Origin: a virus
Strand: one strand, 5' to 3'
Length of the DNA: 42,979 nt
Virus record (IMG/VR): IMGVR_UViG_3300027704_000051
Location: 1 to 42,979 of that record
The translations under genes were made by a program, and so were the position numbers. The notes under the pieces are model-generated. The model was not told the origin of the DNA, ran no database searches, and was given only the letters and a program-made list of their open reading frames with translations. Below, one piece after another: positions 3,001-42,306 of this stretch. The first letter of the stretch is position 1. Each line of letters opens with the position of its first letter.

Positions 3001-6000
3001 TGGTATCATCCTGTACGATATAAGATGCCCAGAAACTTCTGATGTAAGGAAGGGGTCTATCAGGTTGTTTTTAGCCGCAAAGTCATAACCGTTTTGATAG
3101 TCAATTAATGAAGCTATTCTATTTATAAAAATCTTTTTAGCTTCAGAGAATGGGTTTTCAATTTCTCCTTTAATCATATAATCAAGAAACTCATTGACAT
3201 CGGAAATGGTTTTTAAATTCCATTCATAGCTAAAGGATGGTCTTCCTGGCCCTTCTATCTGTTCCGATCCTTCTTTTTCTTCCTTAAGATCAACCTTCTG
3301 CCTTACTAAAGTTCTCCCGTTTGGTATATTGGTAAATCCTATTTTGTTAGACGACTGATTTAAGTACCCGTTTATTAATTGAACCGCAGTCTCTTCTTTC
3401 GTCTTCCCAGACTCAACCTCAGCGGCTAAACGCTCTTTAACAGCAATAGATATCTTAGAAGCTATATATGGATTTCCAGCTATAGCGTTGTTGCCTAAAG
3501 TGTTAAAGGTTATAGCAACTTGCCCTCTCTCTCCAGGTTTTAAGCCTTTTTCTTTAGCATCCATAGCCGCTTGACGTTCTAAAGCACCAAGAATAGTTCC
3601 AGCGTCTTCTGGTGTTAAATGAGAGGTGACTATTCTGTTGTTTTTTAATTTCGGGTCAACACCTTTTCCAGTAAGCTTTAGCTCGTTTTGTTTTTTAATA
3701 CCGCTTGGATTTTTTTTCTCTTTTTCAAACCATGTACTATCATAACCTAGATCAACCGCTCTTACCCCATTCAACTCTTCCGAAGACCCTACTTTTTTAG
3801 CACTCCCTTTTGTAAAGTGTTTCATGTGAGCTTTCGAAGCTTGAGTTCCTGTCGATCTAGCAAACATAACCGATCCGTCAGCTACAGCGTTGCCGCTGCC
3901 CGCTTCATCGAGCCTTACTAGTCCGCTCATATTGAACAGCTCAGGGTGATCCTTTTTAGATACCGTGGAGAACCCACGCGCCATCTCTTTAAGCTGTTCT
4001 TGAGTAATCCCTGAGTCGATTGCCGCTTGAATATTCTTCTTTGCTATGACTTGCCCTTCAAAGTCAAGTCTTTCAGTAGCCCCTTCAGGAGTAAAGTCAG
4101 ACATGTTGGTATACATGTTCAAAGGTGAATTGTACCAGAGACTACTGACTTCTTTAGCCAGCTCTGAGTATTGCACCCTAAGTTCAAGGTCCTGATCCTC
4201 GTTGATTTTTTGCCTGTTTCTTCTTATCTGACCAAAACTAGAGATGCGCTCCATTTTAACCTTGTTACCTTCTGAATCCAGCTTAGGCTTAGGTGGATTA
4301 ACTATATGCTTCTTGCCATCTTTAAGGAAGTACATATTGGTAACAACGCCAGGAAACTCTTGGTTAGCCGTTGTCTTGTTGTACCAATTTCTGAAGTGGT
4401 AAAAGTCGTTTACCTTAACTTTTTTAGATTCCCCCGTGTATCCGCTTGGCCTCCCGACCGTCCAGTCAGCCATCTCAACTCCAGATTGCCTATTGAAATC
4501 ATAGTAGATTTCTGTGTCATTTAGATACGTAAACCCCTGGCTTCTTGACATAACCGTGCCTCCAGGTTTTGCTTCTGAGGCTGTCTTTTTACCCGTGTCG
4601 ATTTTAACGGAAGTTCCTGAGATAATATTTGAAACGTTATTAGCTACTGAGATTAGATCTGACTCATTCTCAATAACCCTCTTTCCAGCGAATTGATTAT
4701 TAAACCAGTTCTTTACCTTCTGCCATATGTTCGTATACTTATTAGATCCTTTCACGTAATCGACAAAGAAAGCAGCAATGATTTCCTCCTGAATCTGCTC
4801 GTTAGAGAAACGGCTAGACGGGTAATCAAGTTTTACACCTTCGATTAGGTTAGCCAGCGCCTTATTGGTTTTTGCTAGCTTAACGAGTTGGTTGTAAAAG
4901 TCTTTTCTTTTCGTTCCGTTTTTCCCGAAAAAGTCTTGCAATAAGTAGTGAGTCACAAGTTCCTCCGAAACAAGATCTACAGCGGATGGAATCTTATACG
5001 ATGAAGACAGCTTAGTCGCCGCTTCCTTGACTTTGTCTGTAAACTCAGCGGAGTTTGTGTCTAGCAAATGAATTTCGCCAGTTTTCCTGTTAACCATACC
5101 GTAAACAAACTCACCAAAAGCTAAAGGAGTGCCTTCTACACCTTCCACAGCCTTAGACATGGATGTTAGGCTTTTATGATTTACAAACTTGTCTCCTTCG
5201 TTTCTAGACAAGTTACCGCCAAGGGACTCTTGAACTCTTGATATAAGGGAGATAAACTCAGTAGAGAACCCAGCGGCTCCCATAGATTCTGGGGTAGCGC
5301 TAGCGATGTCAATACTCGATGGCTCAGGAACAGACTCTTGTTGATCTAAAGCTTCAGGGTCTTCCTGAGTTTCTTCGGCTGGCTGTGACTCTGTCGATTC
5401 GTCAAACAAAGAAAGCTGAACGCCTTCTTGAGATTCTTCCGCTATTGGAGCGACATCCGCCTGCTGTGTTTCTTCTGGGGTTGCGTCCTCAGGCGTAATC
5501 TCTACCACTTCCCCGTCAGCGGTTTCTACTGTAACTCCGCCGCTAGTGGGGTCCTCTATAGGCTTGGTGATTTCTTTTAACTCAGCTTCTTTTTGTTCTG
5601 GAGTCAGCTGATCGTAAGTCTCGCCGATTTCTTTAATCTCTTGTTGGACTTTTTCGAGTTCCGCTTGTTCCTTCGCAGCCATTCTAGAGCCCTTCTTAGA
5701 GATGGAATCCTTTAATCCTTTCTCCCTCTGTAGCTTTCTAAAAATTTGCTTCTGAGTAGAAACGCTTGCGTCAGAAGGGACTTGACCCATAATCTCAAGA
5801 AGGTCTTTGTCTGTCTGGCTCTCTTTTCTAGCTTCTTCTTTAGTCATCTCACCCAAAGAAACCTTATGAGATCTGTTCATCTCTCTTAGACCCGCAAAGT
5901 TTTTATCTCTAAAAAAGTCCAAATCAAGCATTTCTTTATCCGAGAAAGAATACTTTGCTGATTTGTATGCAGCTCTACTTCCAAGAAGTATACCTCCTAA

Positions 6001-17053: not shown

Positions 17054-18415
17054 TTAGTGCTTTTTCAAGAGAACGTGCTGGTTAGCAGCTCTCACACAAA
17101 GGTTACACTCAGAGCGATAGTTGAATTTAGCTCTGTCTTTTCCGTCAGTGTTGTATCCGAGGACACCACCACCTTCAATCCAGTGCTCCATGTCTCTGCT
17201 GTAGTTTCCAGCTGACTTGTAGTTCATCTCCAAAGAAGGTGCTTTAGCACCTGTCTTAGCATCAGCAACAGAAGTCATAGGAATCATAGCTCCGAGCAAG
17301 CTTCCAGCAGCTCCAATACCACCCATAGTAGGGTCGTTCAAGAGTTTCCAGTCATGCTTGTGGAAGTTGTAACCACCGCGAGTAAACGACTTAAAACCAA
17401 GGTTTACTGCCATGTCCTTGTCGTTGTTAAACGCTCCGAACTGAGTTGCAAGGCCAGAAGTCAAAGAACTAGCAGCGCCTGCGGCGAGCATGTCATCAAT
17501 ATTCAAAGACATCTGTCTGTTGAGGTACATAGCGTACTCAGCAGGAGCACCTTCTTTATCGAGTTGAAGAATGATTGCGTCGATATCAGCCAAAGAAGCA
17601 AAGTCTGTGTCTGTGTTTGCGCCAGAGACAATGCCTCTATTCTCAACGGCAGCCATGTAACCTTCAGATCCTGTAACGGCTCCGTCAGCTAAGGTATTAG
17701 CACCTTTTTCGGCGTAAATCAACATAGCCTCTCTTTCGTTCATGAATCGCTTTCGCGTGTCCATTTCGTTCTTGTGATACCATCGGTAGTCACCGCCTAC
17801 GTTAATCCATCCAATGTTAGTGGCTTGAGATCCGCTTACCTCAAAGCTCTCTTTAACAATAATGAAAGGATTCTCGTAACGAGTTAAGCTAGTCTCGTAT
17901 CCCTTAGTTGGCTGATCCGAACCTTGAGCATACATATTACCGATAATATTCATTACACCACCTGTTACAGTGCCTGGGGCGGTGCCGTCAAGCTCAAGAG
18001 CAGTGAAAGTTGCGTTGGACGCGTGAATAGCCGTAACGACCAATCGCTCACCGCTTGCAGCAAGTAAAACGTCGTTCAAACGAATACACTTGTTTGCAAT
18101 CAAATCAGCAGAAGTAGTAGAACCGTCGCGCTCTGTGATGGTGCAAGCTCCAGATCCCCCTACAGTCACCTTCAGGGTTCTGTGAAGTCTACCTTCTTCG
18201 TACCAGTGAGTCTCGTCAGCTGTTCCAGCGCTCTTCTTTGCGCCAGTCAGCTCCAAGAGGCCAGTGATACCTTGATCGCCAAAAGTAGAGACATAAAGAT
18301 CTCTTACGTCTGGTTTTGTTGGGTCCAATAGAGAACCCAATGTTGTATAATTAGCAGGCGTGGCGTCTAGACCTCTTGGTCCTACGTCCGCTGCCGTTCC
18401 ATTTGATAAAGCCAT
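17054..18415 (-). CDS. Major capsid protein, HK97-type, 453 aa
   Basis: This is the shell protein. The central pattern SFEVSGSQATNIGW, WYHKNEMDTRKRFMNEREAML, then VENRGIVSG and SLADIDAIILQLDKEGAPAEYAMYL follows the layout of crAss-like and Cellulophaga-podovirus capsid proteins (E-loop, spine helix, P-domain), recalled from family knowledge. The length of about 450 residues is normal for the fold. The gene follows the scaffold gene by 21 nt, with an A-rich leader (AAAAAATAAAAAATT) before the ATG, a strong translation signal in Bacteroidota. A terminator follows. No protease is visible nearby, so maturation may not need cleavage or may use a gene outside the window. Confidence 0.85.
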   Translation of the reverse strand: MALSNGTAADVGPRGLDATPANYTTLGSLLDPTKPDVRDLYVSTFGDQGITGLLELTGAKKSAGTADETHWYEEGRLHRTLKVTVGGSGACTITERDGSTTSADLIANKCIRLNDVLLAASGERLVVTAIHASNATFTALELDGTAPGTVTGGVMNIIGNMYAQGSDQPTKGYETSLTRYENPFIIVKESFEVSGSQATNIGWINVGGDYRWYHKNEMDTRKRFMNEREAMLIYAEKGANTLADGAVTGSEGYMAAVENRGIVSGANTDTDFASLADIDAIILQLDKEGAPAEYAMYLNRQMSLNIDDMLAAGAASSLTSGLATQFGAFNNDKDMAVNLGFKSFTRGGYNFHKHDWKLLNDPTMGGIGAAGSLLGAMIPMTSVADAKTGAKAPSLEMNYKSAGNYSRDMEHWIEGGGVLGYNTDGKDRAKFNYRSECNLCVRAANQHVLLKKH

Positions 18416-20298: not shown

Positions 20299-20556
20299 TC
20301 ACGGCCTTAGTCCATACTCCCCTACGGGAATTGTGATAAATTCGACTCCGCTTGGTGTAGCCATTTCAATAACTTTTTCGGTTTCTACAATCCAAGTGCT
20401 GTAAGTCGCATAAAAAATACCGTCAATTTCTTCGCATTCTTCCAATGATTCTTGATCATACATAAAGTCCATATTAGGAACTGCATCGTCTTTCCATCCT
20501 GCTAAAAAATCTGTGTTAATTGATACCTCCACCCGATATGTGTTGTAGTCGTTCAT
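20299..20556 (-). CDS. Small acidic protein downstream of the fibre genes, 85 aa
   Basis: Not recognised. It is acidic, rich in Glu, Tyr and Thr, with alternating hydrophobic stretches that suggest a compact alpha/beta fold (YRVEVSINTDFLAGW, WIVETEKVIEM). There is no signal peptide and no membrane segment. It is the last gene of the host-recognition block, overlaps the RCC1-like gene by one base and is followed by a terminator. Small genes at this place often encode fibre chaperones or accessory tail proteins, which is inference only. Confidence 0.55.
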   Translation of the reverse strand: MNDYNTYRVEVSINTDFLAGWKDDAVPNMDFMYDQESLEECEEIDGIFYATYSTWIVETEKVIEMATPSGVEFITIPVGEYGLRP

Positions 20557-21758
20557 TACTTTGATAGAATTACAGAGGTAAAGTTGTTTATGCCTGTTAC
20601 TGCGGTTGTGTTTCCGAAATCAACCCATGTTGTTGTGGTTGGAGGATAACCTAACGCCTCTTTGATTACATAAGATTGAGCGCCTCCACCAATTTTCATT
20701 TGACCGTTTTTTATACAAATAGCTGGATACGTACTGTATGAACTCTTTGCTCTTTGTTTGTATAAAGTGTATCCTGTTGACCCTCCGTCAATTAAATCCA
20801 TAGCATTTGAGGTCGTGCTTTGACTTGAGGTGCTGTTGTCGGGTCTTTGTCTCTGACCTCCATAACCTGCAAATCTCAATTGACCTGTGTTTGTAATAGC
20901 AAAAGCACACCAATAAGTCAAGCCCGATACCGACACAACATCACCACCATTATAACTTAACGTTGGACCATCGACATCGGCTGTGCTTGATATTAAAGGG
21001 CCACCCTGATGGTAGTTGTTTCTCCCTGTATGATAAATATTCCCATCCTTGACCACTAAGGAAGTTCTATAGCAGCCTCCTTCAGCTTCTGTCACTCCTG
21101 TTAAATTGTTTTTATCCCTTGTTCTTGTAGCCGTACTACCTGATTGCGTTCCTTGACCCGTCATATAGTCGTAATTGTAGCCGTTAAAATAAACGTGTCC
21201 GCTTGTTGTAATAGCGATGCATTTTCGATAGCCTAGCCTAACCTTTGACCACGTTAATGAATCTTGAATTTCGATCCAAGTATACGAGGATGCTGTGTTA
21301 CCGTCACCTCGCTGACGACTGCTGCCATAACCTGCAAACCACAAGTTCCCATCCCGTACAGCCATGACGCAATTCTGGTCACCGTCCATACTTATATCAT
21401 CCCAATTCGTATCTGTGCCATATCTGCGCCATGTGCCATCCTTAATCGCCCAATTTGTATAAGTTGCACCTTCTGCATAATTGTACCACAATTCGCCATT
21501 TGCTGTAATAGCTATAAAATTCTCACTTGTAGCACCTCCTTCAATTTTTGTAAATCGTTCGGTAGTAAGTACGCTAATGTTGAAGTCAAGGGTGACATCG
21601 GGATTTGCCGAAATGACACCGCTTCCAACTCTTTGCGTTCCTGTTGCGCCTGCTGCAGCTATTGAATTAGGCGTTATACCACTTCCACCTCCTTGCGTGG
21701 TAAAGAACCCGTCTACGTTGTCTATGTCCGCTGTTGGAACTCCTGAAATTTCTCCCAT
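20556..21758 (-). CDS. Tail protein with RCC1-type beta-propeller repeats, 400 aa
   Basis: After a short N-terminal linker (ISGVPTADIDNVDGFF and a Gly-rich stretch), residues about 75-400 carry repeats of the RCC1 type. Each combines a hydrophobic strand (AITANGELWY, AVRDGNLWFAGYG, AITTSGHVYFNGYN, VVKDGNIYHTGRN, AITNTGQLRFAGYG, CIKNGQMKIGG) with a Gly-rich turn. The spacing fits about six blades. RCC1-like propellers in phages are probable receptor-binding tips, and the location among fibre genes supports that. The start lies three bases after the 845-aa fibre gene stop. It could be a fibre-associated tip or an independent adhesin. Confidence 0.7.
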   Translation of the reverse strand: MGEISGVPTADIDNVDGFFTTQGGGSGITPNSIAAAGATGTQRVGSGVISANPDVTLDFNISVLTTERFTKIEGGATSENFIAITANGELWYNYAEGATYTNWAIKDGTWRRYGTDTNWDDISMDGDQNCVMAVRDGNLWFAGYGSSRQRGDGNTASSYTWIEIQDSLTWSKVRLGYRKCIAITTSGHVYFNGYNYDYMTGQGTQSGSTATRTRDKNNLTGVTEAEGGCYRTSLVVKDGNIYHTGRNNYHQGGPLISSTADVDGPTLSYNGGDVVSVSGLTYWCAFAITNTGQLRFAGYGGQRQRPDNSTSSQSTTSNAMDLIDGGSTGYTLYKQRAKSSYSTYPAICIKNGQMKIGGGAQSYVIKEALGYPPTTTTWVDFGNTTAVTGINNFTSVILSK

Positions 21759-29872: not shown

Positions 29873-31999
29873 CTACAAGTGCCAGGTTTTCGGCTTAAAA
29901 GTCCTAAAGAACTGCTTCTCATTAAAGTCGGCCTTAGGCTTTTCTTTCTTTGTTTTCTGAGCGCCAAGTAGTGCCAGCCCAGAGCTAATAGTCAAGTCAA
30001 ACTTAGTCCTCTTGTCTATTTTGTAGCCAATCCAATCCTCTAGGGTTTTATTAAAGTACATATTACCAAACTCAGCAGACTCTGGCTTTATACCTACGTG
30101 ATCGTGTATATAAGCCTCGATAGCCTGAGCGTGAGACTGAATAACGTCCTGAGAGTTAGAAGGGATTCCTTTAGTTCTAACGTTTACAGAAGAGTTACCC
30201 GTCTTAAGGTGGTCTGGCCTATCCATTAGGTAGCCGTCATATCCCCTGGCTTCAAAGTATCTGACGATACCATACTTGTTATTCTCTACCAGAAGCGGGT
30301 AGCCATAGAAGAAAGAGCACATAAGGACGTCTTCGTAGAATATGCTAGCTAAGTCTGGTCGAGAAGCATACTCCACCACAAACATATTAGCGGGGACGTC
30401 CATATTGAACTTGTTGTACATATGAAGGGCGCCTTTAGACCCTCTGCCGTCTACCGTAGCGTCTAAATCATACGAGTCAACTCCGCCTACACCGATGTGC
30501 TTGTTAGGGGCAATCTTCTTGCCTCTTTCCTCAGCCTTGTTATTCCTAAGATGATCAGGCGGCATCCAGGCAACGCGGAACCGACCATTGGGATCAGGAG
30601 AGAACGCAACTTCTTCGTCTTTCTTTCGCCACACAAAGTTCCCCTTAACGACTGGATTGGGGTATAGGTCATCGTTAAACTCTATCTGCTGATAGATCTT
30701 ACCTATGTTAAATAAACTTCCCTCTATGCTGTCCCTAAATGCCTCGTCTGTAGTAAAAGGGAACTGCCTGATAACCTCATTAAGTTCCGAGGGGTCATCC
30801 TTAAATGATTTCCTGTCATTTTTCAAGTAAGTCTTACTGCCCTGGTCGATCATTTCCCCGTCAATACCCTCTATATCCTTTTCTGGATCTTCTATAACGG
30901 GGTTGCCGTGCTTGTCGAAAAACCCTTCGAGAGCTTCGTAAGCTGGTATAAAAATCCTATACATGCCAGAGCGTGTCCTTCCGTTATCATTTCTTTGTGA
31001 CGGGTCAGAGTCATCCCACAAATCTTTATATTCATCTCCTCCCTTACTCATTGGGTTTACGGTACTCCCTACAAGAGCCTTCCCTACAATACGTTTACCT
31101 ACAATTAAGCAAGTCCTCTCTACACGCCACGCCTCACGGATATCGGTAGGTTTCTCCCACTTACCCGCCTCATCGAGGTACAACATATGTAGCTTCTCCC
31201 CGTCATAAGCGTTATTCGTTGTGTTCTTCCAGTTAATAGTACTGTTTAGAGCGTCTCCTTTATAGGATGTCTTATTGTTTTTGGTGATGCGCTTAGAAGG
31301 TTCTCTAAACGCAAGCTCCATACGCGGATTCGTCGTACCGTCCTGGATAGGCTTAAAGAAAAATGGATAGCCTCTAAAGATAGAGACCACCTTCTTCATG
31401 AAAATGTTTTCCTGAGCGTCCTTACCAGTCTTCGATTGAATACCAAGAAGTTTCTCTTTAACTTGACTAGCCTCGTCAACAAGTACAGCACTACAGACAT
31501 TAGTATACCCAGAACGGCGACACTTAGTATAAAGCTGACCGAAACAACGAGTATCAGCTTCACACGCAGCCATGTGGATATAGATTTCTCTTTGGAATTG
31601 TAAGAATTGAGGATATCCGACATCGATTTTAGACCATTGTAGAAACATATAGTGCCGCCCTGTAATATACGTAGGGATGCCATTATTGTAAAACCAAACA
31701 CCGTCACGGCGACGCTGAAACTCTTGTTCGATATAAGCAGAAAACTTCTTGCGGAACTCACTCGGTTTTTCGTGCCACTCATCCATACTTCGAACCCTTT
31801 GCATTTCCTCAGGCATTGGTATCCTTGTCCACAGCTGCATGTGCTTTGGCCGATCATGGAAGAGAATCTTCGATCGGGGTGGTTTTTTTGGAAGGACAAC
31901 GAGAAGCCCATGTAGTTCGATAAATTCTCCCTCTGTACCGTTAGAGTCGATCTTAATCCCTTGATCTTCATAACCTTCTATGTCTATTAAATTAACCAT
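29873..31999 (-). CDS. terL: Terminase large subunit (ATPase-nuclease), 708 aa
   Basis: This is the packaging motor. The N-terminal ATPase has an adenine-motif-like region (FLQWSKIDVGYPQFLQFQRE), then a Walker-A position at residues 159-166 reading KCRRSGYT. Walker B is LYLDE at 273-277, and a coupling motif GSTVN lies at 311-315. IQSKTGKDA (about 187-195) and YPFFFKP (211-217) are typical of crAss-like TerLs. The C-terminal RNase-H-like nuclease has D508 in GVDSYDLD, E543 or E572 (LLVENN) and a later Asp. The Walker-A Lys is replaced by Tyr. Length is normal. The ATG overlaps the stop of the zinc-ribbon gene by one base. Confidence 0.88.
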   Translation of the reverse strand: MVNLIDIEGYEDQGIKIDSNGTEGEFIELHGLLVVLPKKPPRSKILFHDRPKHMQLWTRIPMPEEMQRVRSMDEWHEKPSEFRKKFSAYIEQEFQRRRDGVWFYNNGIPTYITGRHYMFLQWSKIDVGYPQFLQFQREIYIHMAACEADTRCFGQLYTKCRRSGYTNVCSAVLVDEASQVKEKLLGIQSKTGKDAQENIFMKKVVSIFRGYPFFFKPIQDGTTNPRMELAFREPSKRITKNNKTSYKGDALNSTINWKNTTNNAYDGEKLHMLYLDEAGKWEKPTDIREAWRVERTCLIVGKRIVGKALVGSTVNPMSKGGDEYKDLWDDSDPSQRNDNGRTRSGMYRIFIPAYEALEGFFDKHGNPVIEDPEKDIEGIDGEMIDQGSKTYLKNDRKSFKDDPSELNEVIRQFPFTTDEAFRDSIEGSLFNIGKIYQQIEFNDDLYPNPVVKGNFVWRKKDEEVAFSPDPNGRFRVAWMPPDHLRNNKAEERGKKIAPNKHIGVGGVDSYDLDATVDGRGSKGALHMYNKFNMDVPANMFVVEYASRPDLASIFYEDVLMCSFFYGYPLLVENNKYGIVRYFEARGYDGYLMDRPDHLKTGNSSVNVRTKGIPSNSQDVIQSHAQAIEAYIHDHVGIKPESAEFGNMYFNKTLEDWIGYKIDKRTKFDLTISSGLALLGAQKTKKEKPKADFNEKQFFRTFKPKTWHL

Positions 32000-32187
32000 T
32001 AAAAGCTCTGCCCATGTGAATTCATGCGGCCTAAATTAGGTACTCCTTTTTTAGGGTTGGTAAGCTTCATCTGAGAGCCGCACTCACAGACTCCTTCAAC
32101 ATAATACGCCTCGCCGTCTTTGACGCGCATAGTAAGGCTCTTCTCGTACTTTTCTTTTCCGCAATCGGGACAGTGTAAGTCTGGCAT
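31999..32187 (-). CDS. Zinc-ribbon protein next to TerL, 62 aa
   Basis: Residues 5-36 hold CPDCGKEK and, after a beta hairpin (EAYYVEGV), CECGSQ, making a CxxC plus CxC zinc-ribbon. The tail reads GVPNLGRMNSHGQSF. Proteins of this form directly before terL occur in marine Bacteroidota-type and cyanobacterial podoviruses, recalled from memory. The role is unknown, but DNA or terminase binding during packaging is a reasonable inference. It overlaps TerL by one base. The leader is A/T-rich (AAATTAAATTTAGAATT). Confidence 0.65.
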   Translation of the reverse strand: MPDLHCPDCGKEKYEKSLTMRVKDGEAYYVEGVCECGSQMKLTNPKKGVPNLGRMNSHGQSF

Positions 32188-32205
32188 AATTCTAAATTTA
32201 ATTTG

Positions 32206-32279
<74 letters not shown>

Positions 32280-37910: not shown

Positions 37911-37984
37911 TTTGGAATAACGAAAAGTTTGTTATACCTTTGTAACCGACGGCAACGATGCTGTCACTCAAAATTCTCTCAGCT
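37911..37984 (+). promoter_or_regulatory. Early promoter cassette, copy 1
   Basis: A -33 TTTG (37911-37914), 20-nt spacer beginning GAATAACGAAAAG, and -7 TACCTTTG (37935-37942). The leader folds CGGCA/TGCTG (one G-U pair) around ACGA at 37950-37963, then carries CTCAAAATTCTCTC, ending 4 nt before the ATG at 37985. It shares architecture and much sequence with copies at 39676 and 41392. Confidence 0.8.
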
Positions 37985-38134
37985 ATGCAAAACACAAGCA
38001 AGCACACGGCGATGAACGCCTTATTCAACGATGTTCAATTCTTCGGTATGGACGTAGTCCGTAACACATCCCAATGGGATACACTCACTTGCGATGAGCA
38101 GATGAGGATGGAAGACCTTGTTGACACTCTGTAA
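37985..38134 (+). CDS. Early protein, 49 aa
   Basis: Not recognised. A soluble 49-residue protein (MQNTSKHTAMNALFNDVQFF at the start, ending DEQMRMEDLVDTL). It is the first gene after promoter cassette copy 1. The ATG at 37985 follows the AAATTCTCT leader at the same distance as the other five such genes. An in-frame ATG 27 nt upstream lies in the leader hairpin loop. The stop codon is in the loop of a perfect 7-bp hairpin (ACACTCT/AGAGTGT). Small, early and first in its unit: a host-takeover peptide is possible. Confidence 0.6.
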   Translation: MQNTSKHTAMNALFNDVQFFGMDVVRNTSQWDTLTCDEQMRMEDLVDTL

Positions 38135-38210: not shown

Positions 38211-38267
38211 TAGCAGAACGGGACTACTAACGTAGTGTGACATCAGGGTTCGACTCCCTGACTGCTA
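38211..38267 (+). ncRNA. tRNA-like element 1 (T-arm plus acceptor stem)
   Basis: The 5' strand TAGCAG pairs with 3' CTGCTA, and just before the latter is a perfect T-arm, CAGGG/CCCTG around TTCGACT. Between lies a small hairpin ACTAC/GTAGT (loop TAAC) in place of the D and anticodon arms, so this is not a canonical tRNA. Total 57 nt, no CCA. The flanks CACATAGC and GCTACTAATTC recur in element 2 (40125-40255), whereas the paired stems differ in sequence, which is covariation. The AAATCTCT leader of the next gene follows directly. Confidence 0.6.
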
Positions 38268-38289
38268 CTAATTCTAAATCTCTAATCCT

Positions 38290-38439
38290 ATGGATTACAA
38301 TCACTTTCTTGAGTTCTCACTTAGTGAGATGGTAGAGGCGTATACGTACTTTACCGATATACATGACTATGAGGGATGCCGCTTAGTAGGCGAAGCCTTT
38401 CACAAAACAACTTCAGTTGAATTTAAAAACCTAATATGA
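38290..38439 (+). CDS. Early acidic protein, 49 aa
   Basis: Not recognised. A small acidic protein with aromatic residues (MDYNHFLEFSLSEMVEAYTY at the start), predicted helical. The ATG follows TTCTAAATCTCT by 6 nt, directly downstream of tRNA-like element 1. The stop overlaps the start of the 151-aa gene by four bases, so the two are coupled. Too short for a domain assignment. Confidence 0.6.
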   Translation: MDYNHFLEFSLSEMVEAYTYFTDIHDYEGCRLVGEAFHKTTSVEFKNLI

Positions 38440-38891
38440 TGAACAAATTACTATTTGACGACGCATGTCGTTTAGCCTATGGCAAAACCATGATGGACGG
38501 GGGATCGACCCTGACCACGAAAGATGCTTTTTACTTCGAAGTACCCAACAAAGGCTACGTAGTTGGCGGTCTGTGGGAGGAAGCCAAGCTTCCAAAGGAA
38601 CTTTGCACTCCGAATCTGTTCCGCTCTATGTGGATGAGATACATGGAGCAGGCAATGCTTATTTGCAAGCAGGGCGGTTCTGATTCTGATGTCAGCATAG
38701 GAACTTGGATTGACTCCGACAACGCTGTTGTCTTCGACATTGCTGAAGTATACACCGATAGCGAATATGACGATGGCACTCTGGCAAGTGTAATGGCGAT
38801 GGACAGATGTGTACAGCGTAATGAGGATGCTATCTTCGACCTTTCCAACAGCAAGGAAATTTTCAACCCTGCAAAGACAAAAAAAGTATGA
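38436..38891 (+). CDS. Early protein of unknown function, 151 aa
   Basis: Not recognised. A mixed alpha/beta soluble protein, acidic, with three Cys and phrases such as FYFEVPNKGYVVGGLWEEAK, SMWMRYMEQAMLICKQGG and DNAVVFDIAEVYTDSEYDD. No signal peptide and no clear active site. Coupled on both sides by four-base overlaps within the unit begun by promoter cassette copy 1. A longer frame on the opposite strand is not credited, because every gene in this region is rightward and tightly overlapped. Confidence 0.65.
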   Translation: MMNKLLFDDACRLAYGKTMMDGGSTLTTKDAFYFEVPNKGYVVGGLWEEAKLPKELCTPNLFRSMWMRYMEQAMLICKQGGSDSDVSIGTWIDSDNAVVFDIAEVYTDSEYDDGTLASVMAMDRCVQRNEDAIFDLSNSKEIFNPAKTKKV

Positions 38892-39052
38892 ATTTATACC
38901 ACGAAAACGAACTTTACCTTTATGGTAAATCAATTGACTCAGGTGAATGGTCAAAGCTAACGCTTTGCAGGACACCTTATGAGAGAGACTCTCGCTACGA
39001 ATACTTCAGAAGCCAAGGGGCTTATAACGATTTTAAATGGGATTTAACATGA
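38888..39052 (+). CDS. Small early protein, 54 aa
   Basis: Not recognised. It is Tyr- and Glu-rich (MNLYHENELYLYGKSIDSGE at the start) and ends DFKWDLT. It fills the gap between the 151-aa gene and the next, with ATGA overlaps at both ends, the signature of coupled translation that runs through this region. Composition is protein-like and soluble. No function can be assigned. Confidence 0.6.
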   Translation: MNLYHENELYLYGKSIDSGEWSKLTLCRTPYERDSRYEYFRSQGAYNDFKWDLT

Positions 39053-39231
39053 ACAAGTACGAAGTACCTGACTATCGAGCAGACATGACGTCAGAGGAAT
39101 ACAGTCTGTTCCTTCGGGCTATATGCAATCGCTTAGAGGCTCAATGCAAGGGTGTCATACCACATGATCCCGTGAATGAGCGACCTAAACCAAATAAGTT
39201 TTTAAATCCATTTTTAATAATGTCAACATGA
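39049..39231 (+). CDS. Small early protein, 60 aa
   Basis: Not recognised. The ATG at 39049, overlapping the previous stop, is preferred to one four codons earlier. The helical N-terminal half (MTSEEYSLFLRAICNRLEAQ) is followed by a Pro/Asn-rich tail. It has two Cys but no metal-binding spacing. The stop overlaps the next ATG. Its place in a run of coupled genes is the main support. Confidence 0.55.
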   Translation: MNKYEVPDYRADMTSEEYSLFLRAICNRLEAQCKGVIPHDPVNERPKPNKFLNPFLIMST

Positions 39232-39410
39232 AAAAAGAAAGTATATGGGATACAATGTATAAGAACCACGGGGCTGAAATGAACATGACGAAGAGGCAAT
39301 TCTACGAGTTGACTATCGACGAGTTAGAGCAAATCTTGTATGTAGATGATGAGTGGGTAGAGGGTGTTGGATGGATAAACTCAAAAACAGGTAAAAAAAT
39401 AGAACAATGA
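39228..39410 (+). CDS. Small early protein, 60 aa
   Basis: Not recognised. An acidic helical protein (MTKRQFYELTIDELEQILYV) with a C-terminal strand pair (VEGVGWINSKTGKKIEQ). Overlaps both neighbours by four bases. Soluble, no membrane segment. The balanced composition and coupling argue for coding. Confidence 0.55.
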   Translation: MKKESIWDTMYKNHGAEMNMTKRQFYELTIDELEQILYVDDEWVEGVGWINSKTGKKIEQ

Positions 39411-39667
39411 ATACGAAATTTACAAACACACGCCTCATAAAGCGAGGCTCACAAGTGCTATACCGAGGCGGATTCGGTCGTGATGCACAGACAGTTGCAT
39501 CCGTAACGGGAATAGAGGTAACCGAAAACGCACGGCAGAAATACGGGGATGAGGTGAATGAGGTGACACTCGATGCACACTATGTACTCACACTTAATAA
39601 TGGACACTGGTGCTACTCAGACCAGGTTGACGGATTGGTTATAACCCCTTCAGAATCAGCAGTTTAG
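39407..39667 (+). CDS. Small beta-barrel-like early protein, 86 aa
   Basis: A strand-rich protein (LIKRGSQVLYRGGFGRDAQT, VASVTGIEVTENA, HYVLTLNNGHWCYSDQVDGL) that reads like a single small SH3 or KOW-type barrel found among unassigned early genes of phages, recalled from memory. No catalytic residues. It is the last gene of the unit begun by cassette copy 1; the next cassette starts 9 nt after its stop. Confidence 0.55.
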   Translation: MNTKFTNTRLIKRGSQVLYRGGFGRDAQTVASVTGIEVTENARQKYGDEVNEVTLDAHYVLTLNNGHWCYSDQVDGLVITPSESAV

Positions 39668-39675
39668 AAATTAAA

Positions 39676-39742
39676 TTTGGAATAACGGAAAGTTTACTGT
39701 ATCTTTGTAGCGGCAATGTTGCCAACTCAAAATCTCTCTCTC
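39676..39742 (+). promoter_or_regulatory. Early promoter cassette, copy 2
   Basis: A -33 TTTG (39676-39679), 20-nt spacer beginning GAATAACGGAAAG, and -7 TATCTTTG (39700-39707). The leader hairpin GGCA/TGCC around ATGT lies at 39712-39723, and ACTCAAAATCTCT ends 5 nt before the ATG at 39743. The predicted start of transcription places the hairpin at the very 5' end. Confidence 0.8.
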
Positions 39743-40117
39743 ATGAAAAGTACACACAATACACTAACCTCCCTGCTATCTGCATGGGACAAGTTGGAAG
39801 TAATCGGAACTAATCCCGACAAACACAAGTCTATACTCACCGAAACCAACATACACGAAGTGAGCCGAAGGATAGCTATCGAGTATCGACACGAACTCAA
39901 CAACGGCGGCGGTTACCCGTACATCGTTTGCTACTTAGTGATGTTCGACGAAAACGGACACCGCAGAGGCGTAACCAACAACGGCTCATGGGGTTGTCAT
40001 GGTGAGGAGATATTGGAATTCAAGAAATGGTTTCAGTTGAAGACTCGTGAGGCAGCAACCCTCGAAGAGGAGCGCATTGACATTACACAAGACAGCATCG
40101 CTGACTTCCTTGCATAA
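39743..40117 (+). CDS. Early protein of unknown function, 124 aa
   Basis: Not recognised. Helical N-terminus (NTLTSLLSAWDKLEVIGTN), then a His/Arg/Gly-rich middle (RRIAIEYRHELNNGGGYPYI) and a Gly-rich turn (RGVTNNGSWGCHGEEI). The ATG at 39743 is preferred because it stands at the usual distance from the leader motif. An in-frame ATG 27 nt earlier in the hairpin loop would add nine residues. First gene of unit 2 and followed by tRNA-like element 2, parallel to the arrangement in unit 1. Confidence 0.65.
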   Translation: MKSTHNTLTSLLSAWDKLEVIGTNPDKHKSILTETNIHEVSRRIAIEYRHELNNGGGYPYIVCYLVMFDENGHRRGVTNNGSWGCHGEEILEFKKWFQLKTREAATLEEERIDITQDSIADFLA

Positions 40118-40124
40118 ACACACA

Positions 40125-40255
40125 TAGCGATGACACGTCCCCTATGAGGATAGGGTAAGGATGTGTCAACCCAACAGCTGTTCCTTCTACCCGTAACCAC
40201 GGACTTATGGCAATGAACATGAAGGTTGATGGTGGTTCGATTCCACCCATCGCTA
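40125..40255 (+). ncRNA. tRNA-like element 2 (T-arm, 8-bp acceptor, expanded arms)
   Basis: TAGCGATG pairs with CATCGCTA (8 bp). The T-arm is GGTGG/CCACC around TTCGATT. The D-arm place holds a long hairpin, GACACGTCC with GGATGTGTC (one G-U) capped by CCTAT/ATAGG. CCTTC may pair with GAAGG, which lies 5 nt before the T-arm exactly as an anticodon stem would, but encloses 33 nt. 131 nt in all, no CCA. Its complement reads like the well-known false protein from tRNA antisense (GGIEPPS). Starts 7 nt after the 124-aa stop. Confidence 0.6.
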
Positions 40256-40276
40256 CTAATTCAAAATCTTTAACAC

Positions 40277-40498
40277 ATGAAAATCCATGCAGTCCATACA
40301 CTCAGTTGGTTACTCGACGAGTGCGAAACAGAACTCTTCGCTAACAAAAGCGATGCCTTAGAAACATTCAATGCTTTACTCGCCTCGTATCACGACGGGA
40401 TCCGCGAGATACACAGCCAGAGTGACGAACACATCTACTTCGAAGGTAAGTACGATGAGCAAATCAAAATATCAATCGAAGAAATTACATTACAATGA
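40277..40498 (+). CDS. Early acidic protein, 73 aa
   Basis: Not recognised. Acidic and helical (HTLSWLLDECETELFANKSD, ALETFNALLASYHDG), with a C-terminal strand and helix (YDEQIKISIEEITLQ). The ATG is 5 nt after AAATCTTT, directly downstream of tRNA-like element 2, as the 49-aa gene is downstream of element 1. The stop overlaps the next start. Confidence 0.6.
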   Translation: MKIHAVHTLSWLLDECETELFANKSDALETFNALLASYHDGIREIHSQSDEHIYFEGKYDEQIKISIEEITLQ

Positions 40499-41391: not shown

Positions 41392-41458
41392 TTTGGAATA
41401 ACGAAAACTAAGTCTTACCTTTGTATCGGCAATGTTGCCAACTCAAAATCTCAATCTA
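41392..41458 (+). promoter_or_regulatory. Early promoter cassette, copy 3
   Basis: A -33 TTTG (41392-41395), 20-nt spacer beginning GAATAACGAAAAC, and -7 TACCTTTG (41416-41423). The hairpin GGCA/TGCC around ATGT (41428-41439) is identical to copy 2, and ACTCAAAATCTC ends 6 nt before the ATG at 41459. Confidence 0.8.
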
Positions 41459-42112: not shown

Positions 42113-42306
42113 CACACGAACGTAAAGAACAACACATCAAGCAGCTTGCCTTCAGCATCGAACAAGGTGCGGCAGCTTATGTAACCGATGACTTCACCAT
42201 CGACTGTCCCACCCCACAGCGGACTGGCACAAACACACAGCAAATGGCATATGCTGACATGAAGGCTCGTGAACTGATGAACGACTACGTAAAATCTCAA
42301 TCATAA
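42109..42306 (+). CDS. Small early protein, 65 aa
   Basis: Not recognised. Helical ends (EQHIKQLAFSIEQGAAAYVT, AYADMKARELMNDYVKSQ) flank a polar turn. Starts in the ATGA overlap with the 217-aa gene and ends in a one-base overlap (TAATG) with the next gene. Soluble; no motif. Confidence 0.55.
   Translation: MTHERKEQHIKQLAFSIEQGAAAYVTDDFTIDCPTPQRTGTNTQQMAYADMKARELMNDYVKSQS

Follow-up and report, generated by a model that had tools for sequence, protein, structure and literature searches.

The window analysed here is the whole of virus record IMGVR_UViG_3300027704_000051 (42,979 bases), from a marine virus of bacteria. Small early genes occupy its right-hand end in plus-strand orientation, and between two pairs of these genes lie folds resembling the top half of a transfer RNA (tRNA), element 1 at 38211-38267 and element 2 at 40125-40255. 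What do such folds do inside an early transcript? Computational analysis of their structure, their homologues and compensatory changes, their placement after a stop codon and ahead of a leader, and the hammerheads at equivalent sites in related phages leads us to consider it likely, on sequence grounds, that the elements are cis-acting signals at which polycistronic phage messenger RNA (mRNA) is cut. The enzymes are probably the host ribonucleases RNase P and RNase Z.

Folds of the two elements

Both elements have a perfect T-arm stacked on an acceptor-like stem. Sequence and minimum-energy folds agree with a first-pass annotation of this DNA, which had described TTCGAYT T-loops and acceptor stems of 6 and 8 base pairs (bp). 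Element 1 (T38211AGCAG ... TCAGGG-TTCGACT-CCCTGA-CTGCTA38267) is built of a 6-bp acceptor-like stem (TAGCAG/CTGCTA), a single hairpin (ACTAC/GTAGT) and the T-arm TCAGGG-TTCGACT-CCCTGA, its acceptor-like stem and T-stem summing to 12 bp, the length of a tRNA acceptor plus T-stem. Element 2 (T40125AGCGATG ... GGTGG-TTCGATT-CCACC-CATCGCTA40255) has an acceptor of AGCGATG/CATCGCT plus T-1:A73, 8 bp in all, and the T-arm GGTGG-TTCGATT-CCACC. Its D-arm place is taken by a long hairpin with an invariant GAGG loop and its anticodon-arm place by a long conserved bulged arm (CAACC/GGTTG, TGTTC/GAACA, CCG/CGG). The predicted folds are the minimum-energy structures of both elements (z of -2.1 for element 1 and -2.9 for element 2). 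As annotated, both begin with CACATAGC and end with GCTACTAATTC. When the T-arm and acceptor descriptor was run on Markov-shuffled windows it returned a mean of 0.07 sites and never reached two (0/200), against two in the real window.

Measured against a canonical tRNA (acceptor 7 bp, T-stem 5 bp, TTCRANN loop), element 2 has 7+5 bp plus one and element 1 approximates this with 6+6 bp. The 12-bp coaxial acceptor/T helix with its T-loop, as in tRNA-like substrates of RNase P and RNase Z, is present in both, and it is found in other family members as well. A canonical D-arm and a 7-nucleotide (nt) anticodon loop are absent from both elements; ARAGORN calls no tRNA there and the folds show other arms. 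The annotation was therefore right that neither has a normal D or anticodon arm and that canonical tRNA function is unlikely, but element 2 is more than a T-arm and acceptor, being a cloverleaf-like four-way junction. An Rfam search of the early region gave no family above threshold. Identity with transfer-messenger RNA (tmRNA) or its permuted form was rejected, at 21.4 bits for tmRNA_permuted against a gathering score of 47 and 13.6 against 70 for cyano_tmRNA; the sub-threshold tmRNA_permuted match (E 0.26) is confined to the T-arm.

Position at gene junctions and the shared leader

On the coding strand, element 2 starts 7 nt downstream of a stop codon and ends 21 nt upstream of an ATG; the corresponding distances for element 1 are 76 and 22 nt. 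Placement between the first and second genes of a promoter unit, as annotated, holds for units 1 and 2, whereas the third unit (41392), in which the second gene (42109) overlaps the first, carries no tRNA-like element. A standard leader and an ATG directly follow both elements, although the leader after element 2 reads AAATCTTT in the window and AAATCTCT in its relative L011. Six early window genes have a AAATCTCT-type leader, and these are exactly the four that follow promoters and the two that follow elements. The leader motif was not found before other tightly packed window genes, and its one further match, at 42292, lies within coding sequence. In a related genome (G003) the same leader occurs in three settings: CACTAATCAAAATCTCAATTACATG after a promoter, CAATCAAAATCTCAATCACATG after a hammerhead and CTAATTCAAAATTTCAAACACATG after a tRNA-like element. 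RNase P measures its substrates with a fixed acceptor/T-stem ruler (PMC4919913). With this ruler taken as 12 bp, a predicted RNase Z cut after the discriminator (C38268 in element 1) would give each window element a leader of 21 nt up to the ATG.

tRNA-like elements across related flavophages

A window structural protein (17054-18415, minus strand) has counterparts at roughly 30% identity in Flavobacterium phages elemoA/E, in the Cellulophaga phages phi38:1, phi18:3 and Calle, and in Maribacter phage Panino, and shares 48-89% identity with proteins from 59 environmental contigs. An exact-pattern scan of IMG/VR placed element 1 in L032, element 2 in L011 and a third kind (165 nt) in L040; the other matches in this first scan were mostly ordinary tRNAs or chance matches, and these three were the only true relatives. 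We then applied a family descriptor, a T-arm with TTCRANN loop and a closing acceptor, to 1.79 Mb of related phage records. It returned 104 sites, comprising 68 canonical tRNAs and 36 non-tRNA sites, compared with 1-6 non-tRNA sites (mean 2.5) for each of eight control loops. The non-tRNA elements are 43-192 nt long and have mostly unrelated interiors (16 to >150 nt). In 18 of 42 elements the acceptor is flanked by a small D-like hairpin whose loop carries GG, against 3.6 with shuffled interiors; element 2 instead has its invariant GAGG loop on a longer arm.

Among 31 distinct non-tRNA elements, 14 have a gene ATG 10-40 nt downstream, compared with 14% of random sites, and 7 of those 14 also have a stop codon at most 15 nt upstream (7/31), compared with 0.75% of random sites. 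Elements that directly precede the next gene end 14-30 nt before its ATG.

Several phages carry multiple tRNA-like elements per genome, and such elements are present in the cultured phages phi38:1 and Panino (4941-5031 in the latter); by the descriptor, phi18:3 and the elemo phage have none. The phi38:1 element (L186:20679-20817, minus strand) is a 139-nt unannotated tRNA-like RNA with a D-arm and a very long variable arm, located between gp031 and gp030 and 28 nt upstream of the ATG of a hedgehog/intein protein gene. A second widespread kind (L126:5669-5731, L133:4135-4254, L134:1191-1285, L173:14522-14651) follows the plan AAGGGAG CGCA-GUCGG-UGCG ... GTTGTG-TTCGAAT-CCCAAC CTCCCTT, in which the pair next below the one that closes the T-loop is recurrently mismatched. 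The site at L143:718-843 (minus strand) resembles a tRNA-Leu gene; its D-arm is normal, it contains a large insert, and ARAGORN makes no call there.

Homologues and covariation of element 2

Element 2 represents an RNA family of 136 nt in about 14 contigs (E 1e-43 to 1e-48), whose members were retrieved by an interior motif and not by pairing. The covariance model matched 14 of 20 records, with one copy in each and E values from 1e-10 to 1e-49. In line with the first-pass annotation, T-arm and acceptor pairing is kept in the homologues recovered by this model and by the scans of related phages. Across 13 aligned members, 92.5% of cells are paired and both sides have changed in 16 of 33 pairs. 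The covariation score is 0.413, compared with 0.181 for shuffled alignments (0/500 shuffles reach the real value) and at most 0.117 when the pairing is slid. Changes on both sides affect the acceptor (8:131, 9:130), the central arm (45:109, 48-50 with 104-106, 58:98, 59:97, 72:79) and the hairpin in the D-arm place. The annotation had applied the term covariation to the difference between elements 1 and 2; pairing is indeed kept there, but the term was loose, as the interiors are non-homologous, and the real covariation is that among element 2 relatives.

Two other readings derive the folds from tRNA genes. Phage attachment sites often copy the 3' half of a tRNA gene, T-arm and acceptor included, and the elements could be such cores for integration into host tRNA genes. 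We give this next to no weight: the 5' acceptor strand is present and covarying, the two copies are not alike, their location is within operons and in coding-strand orientation, and several phages hold several per genome. Decaying or mis-annotated tRNA genes without function would suit phages that have many tRNAs, and some matches outside the window (e.g., L143:718-843) do look like altered tRNAs. For the window elements this is very improbable, as compensatory changes maintain the acceptor and the top half is perfect despite the missing anticodon arm. Element 1, moreover, is identical at 57 of 57 nt in contig L032, where the adjoining upstream spacer is shorter through an insertion or deletion.

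The interior of element 2 is long and strongly conserved (GTTCCTTCYACCC..ACC..GGRCTTATGGCAAYGA) and has covarying helices of its own. There is one copy per genome, and its gene neighbours change; the homologue in L011 stands after different genes. These properties would fit the precursor of a stable small RNA acting in trans, for example as a decoy for tRNA-cutting defences or a mimic directed at the translation machinery, for which the leader would be a by-product of tRNA-like maturation; RNase P and RNase Z would act on such a precursor in the same way. We regard this as unlikely, although it deserves some weight. A single trans function fails to explain the unrelated interiors of the other elements, from 16 to >150 nt, or the presence of hammerheads at equivalent sites.

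Further observations concern the element 2 family itself. L208:118-265 (minus strand) is a recombinant half copy in which the right half is retained and the left half swapped, which suggests modular exchange. In L118:2255-2440, L198, L205 and L208, the stretch between the element 2 homologue and the leader contains an H-type pseudoknot (CTCACC..CTGGTA..GGTGAG..TACCAG), conserved and covarying, along with additional structure. Rfam returned no match for this module, which is possibly an undescribed ribozyme or processing module, and no family above threshold for the element 2 relatives. A search of bacterial genomes with the element 2 motif gave three matches; the Bacteroidales one (L218) apparently lies within coding sequence and is probably due to chance.

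Hammerheads at equivalent junctions, and long stem-loops

Rfam gave weak hammerhead matches in the relatives, below the gathering score. A core-and-stem descriptor (CUGANGA ... GAAA core, three stems, NUH cut site) located type-I hammerheads in the relatives, 3' of a stop codon and 5' of the same leader. Including a further IMG/VR scan, 45 distinct hammerheads were found, and in 39 of these the predicted cut falls 24-28 nt before the next ATG; eight control descriptors with broken cores gave zero matches. The records bearing them are L040, L118, L133, L153, L155, L160, L173, L192, L196, L200, L201, L206 and L221-L242, and cultured phage phi18:3 has one (L192:21905-21957, minus strand), between gp050 and gp049. 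The hammerhead core was not found in the window. Apart from cutting, little would account for a self-cutting ribozyme kept at so steady a distance from the start codon. Because the tRNA-like elements occupy equivalent places, cutting is the best explanation for them as well, and we take this independent device as the strongest argument for it.

In addition, long near-perfect stem-loops (e.g., CTATACACTCTCTTC..GAAGAGTGTATAG) stand ahead of the standard leader in L133:1150-1300, L154, L173 and others. They look like RNase III processing sites, and would be a third device in some relatives.

The folds might instead be uncut structural spacers that insulate the ribosome-binding region or block exonucleases. 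Transcripts started at the promoters likewise open with a small hairpin, after which the same leader follows, and in relatives long perfect stem-loops stand ahead of the leader. We nevertheless judge this quite improbable. Any hairpin would do as a spacer, yet the elements retain the TTCRANN T-loop, the 12-bp geometry and often the D-like GG hairpin; hammerheads keep catalytic cores, beyond mere stems, at equivalent places; and the stem-loops, in resembling RNase III sites, again point to a cutting signal.

Proposed function

Under cutting in cis, the T-arm stacked on the acceptor-like stem would form a tRNA-like top half inside the polycistronic early transcript. RNase P would cut at the 5' edge of the element. 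RNase Z would cut just past the 3' edge, where it is expected because no CCA is encoded; among the tRNAs of these phages, 7 of 82 end in CCA. Acceptor/T-arm minihelices are RNase P substrates (PMC11143913), and in mascRNA conserved guanosines build an elbow recognised by both RNase P and RNase Z (PMC11693755). Cutting would separate the first gene from the remainder of the transcript and give the second a free 5' end with a short unstructured leader (TCAAAATCTC...ATG), as promoter-started transcripts carry after their 5' hairpin. The downstream gene may thereby gain the standard leader along with mRNA stability or translation of its own. The processing proposed in the first-pass annotation is supported by the short distance from element end to ATG and by the hammerheads that relatives have in the corresponding place ahead of this leader; the choice of enzymes is our inference.

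Several observations weigh against this interpretation. Eight of 13 element 2 relatives have lost pairing at acceptor pair 10:129, and the T-stem is invariant within the family, so that sequence change with pairing kept appears there only between families. That element 2 conserves so long an interior suggests that it does more than direct cutting. In element 1 the helix is 6+6, the D-like GG hairpin is lacking, and a single homologue was found, in L032. For some elements the next start is 90-330 nt away and further structured modules intervene, so that not every one makes the leader directly. Finally, tight packing is partly expected in compact phage genomes, and 21 of 82 canonical tRNAs in these phages lie within 40 nt of an ATG.

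For this lineage of flavophages, we lean towards the view that interchangeable RNA-cutting cassettes (tRNA mimics, hammerheads and RNase III-like stem-loops) punctuate polycistronic messages. Each cut would leave the same leader of about 20-28 nt, so that a few promoters could supply many mRNAs whose 5' ends are uniform, in hosts where translation does not depend on Shine-Dalgarno sequences.

To our knowledge, phage hammerheads have so far had no clear role. Unrelated cutting devices at equivalent junctions, at a near-constant distance from the ATG and before the same leader, give them a testable function. The analysis also describes tRNA mimics in phage operons, and the findings suggest that translation in Bacteroidota is sensitive to the 5' ends of mRNAs and to the length of the leader. 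Because phi18:3, phi38:1 and Panino are cultured carriers of such elements, these proposals can be tested now.

Early promoter units of the window

Three Bacteroidota-type promoter boxes (TTTG ... TANNTTTG) head the early units; their features are listed in Table 1. The only canonical tRNA of the window (Arg, TCT; 32205-32279, minus strand) is a true tRNA in the punctuation position, with 17 nt separating its end from the ATG of the gene that follows (31999-32187, minus strand). Amid the structural genes, the protein at 20556-21758 (minus strand) has repeats like those of the regulator of chromosome condensation (RCC1).

Table 1. Promoters, hairpins, genes, tRNA-like elements and leaders of the early units.
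Feature	Position	Strand	Description
Unit 1 promoter	37911..37942	+	TTTG ... TACCTTTG (sequence)
Unit 1 5' hairpin	37948-37965	+	GACGGCA/TGCTGTC; 3' of promoter, then standard leader
Unit 1 first gene	37985..38134	+	49 amino acids; no Pfam match
tRNA-like element 1	38211..38267	+	Acceptor-like stem, one hairpin, T-arm
Standard leader after element 1	38268..38289	+	CTAATTCTAAATCTCTAATCCT (sequence)
Unit 1 second gene	38290..38439	+	49 amino acids
Unit 2 promoter	39676..39707	+	TTTG ... TATCTTTG (sequence)
Unit 2 5' hairpin	39712-39723	+	GGCA/TGCC; 3' of promoter, then leader
Unit 2 first gene	39743..40117	+	124 amino acids; no Pfam match
tRNA-like element 2	40125..40255	+	Four-way junction with acceptor, two extra arms, T-arm
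Standard leader after element 2	40256..40276	+	CTAATTCAAAATCTTTAACAC (sequence)
Unit 2 second gene	40277..40498	+	73 amino acids
Unit 3 promoter	41392..41423	+	TTTG ... TACCTTTG; same 5' hairpin and leader

Comparison with known systems

We found no report in the open-access literature of tRNA mimics or hammerheads as gene-junction punctuation in flavophages, nor of the two as interchangeable cutters at gene junctions in phages, which is not proof of absence. The separate parts are already known: mitochondrial tRNA punctuation, mascRNA, phage RNase P substrates, phage hammerheads, theta ribozymes and T7 RNase III sites. In mitochondria, tRNAs punctuate polycistronic transcripts and are excised by RNase P and RNase Z. 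The flavophage elements are similar in that a tRNA-shaped fold lies between open reading frames and cutting at its edges would free mRNAs with short leaders. They differ in not being tRNAs, in belonging to a bacteriophage operon and in that hammerheads can take equivalent places. The early polycistronic mRNA of phage T7 is cut by RNase III at RNA structures between genes, but those folds and that enzyme are not the ones proposed for the flavophage elements.

Another structural likeness is to MALAT1 mascRNA and MEN-beta menRNA, in which acceptor and T-arm are retained, linker nucleotides are missing and the other arm is replaced; many flavophage relatives similarly have the small D-like hairpin with conserved guanosines. 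mascRNA and menRNA form at the 3' ends of eukaryotic nuclear long noncoding RNAs and are processed by RNase P and RNase Z (PMC11693755), whereas the flavophage elements are intergenic in phage mRNA, just upstream of a start codon. The two have a common plan only, with no homology. tmRNA and permuted tmRNA (RF04321) also place acceptor and T-arm around a non-tRNA insert, but the element scores below gathering and no tag reading frame or pseudoknot set was seen inside it.

Among phages, phi80 M3 RNA and the P1/P7 C4 antisense RNA are non-tRNA folds cut by RNase P (PMC11143913). They are individual antisense or other RNAs for which repeated use at gene junctions is not described, and the C4 Rfam family has no match in the early region of the window. 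Theta ribozymes, which are hepatitis delta virus (HDV)-like, lie beside tRNAs in Bacteroidota phages and trim their 3' trailers (PMC10879173); the likeness is one of Bacteroidota phages with RNA-cutting elements that process tRNA-shaped RNA, and no HDV-like ribozyme was matched in this analysis. Hammerheads are known from phages and from polycistronic RNAs, where they are intergenic, and the 5' end of a major halovirus transcript lies at most 3 nt from the cut site of a variant (Perreault et al. 2011, PMC3088659). The window differs in having none, and those of the flavophage relatives differ in recurring 24-28 nt from the ATG, at sites that correspond to the tRNA-like ones.

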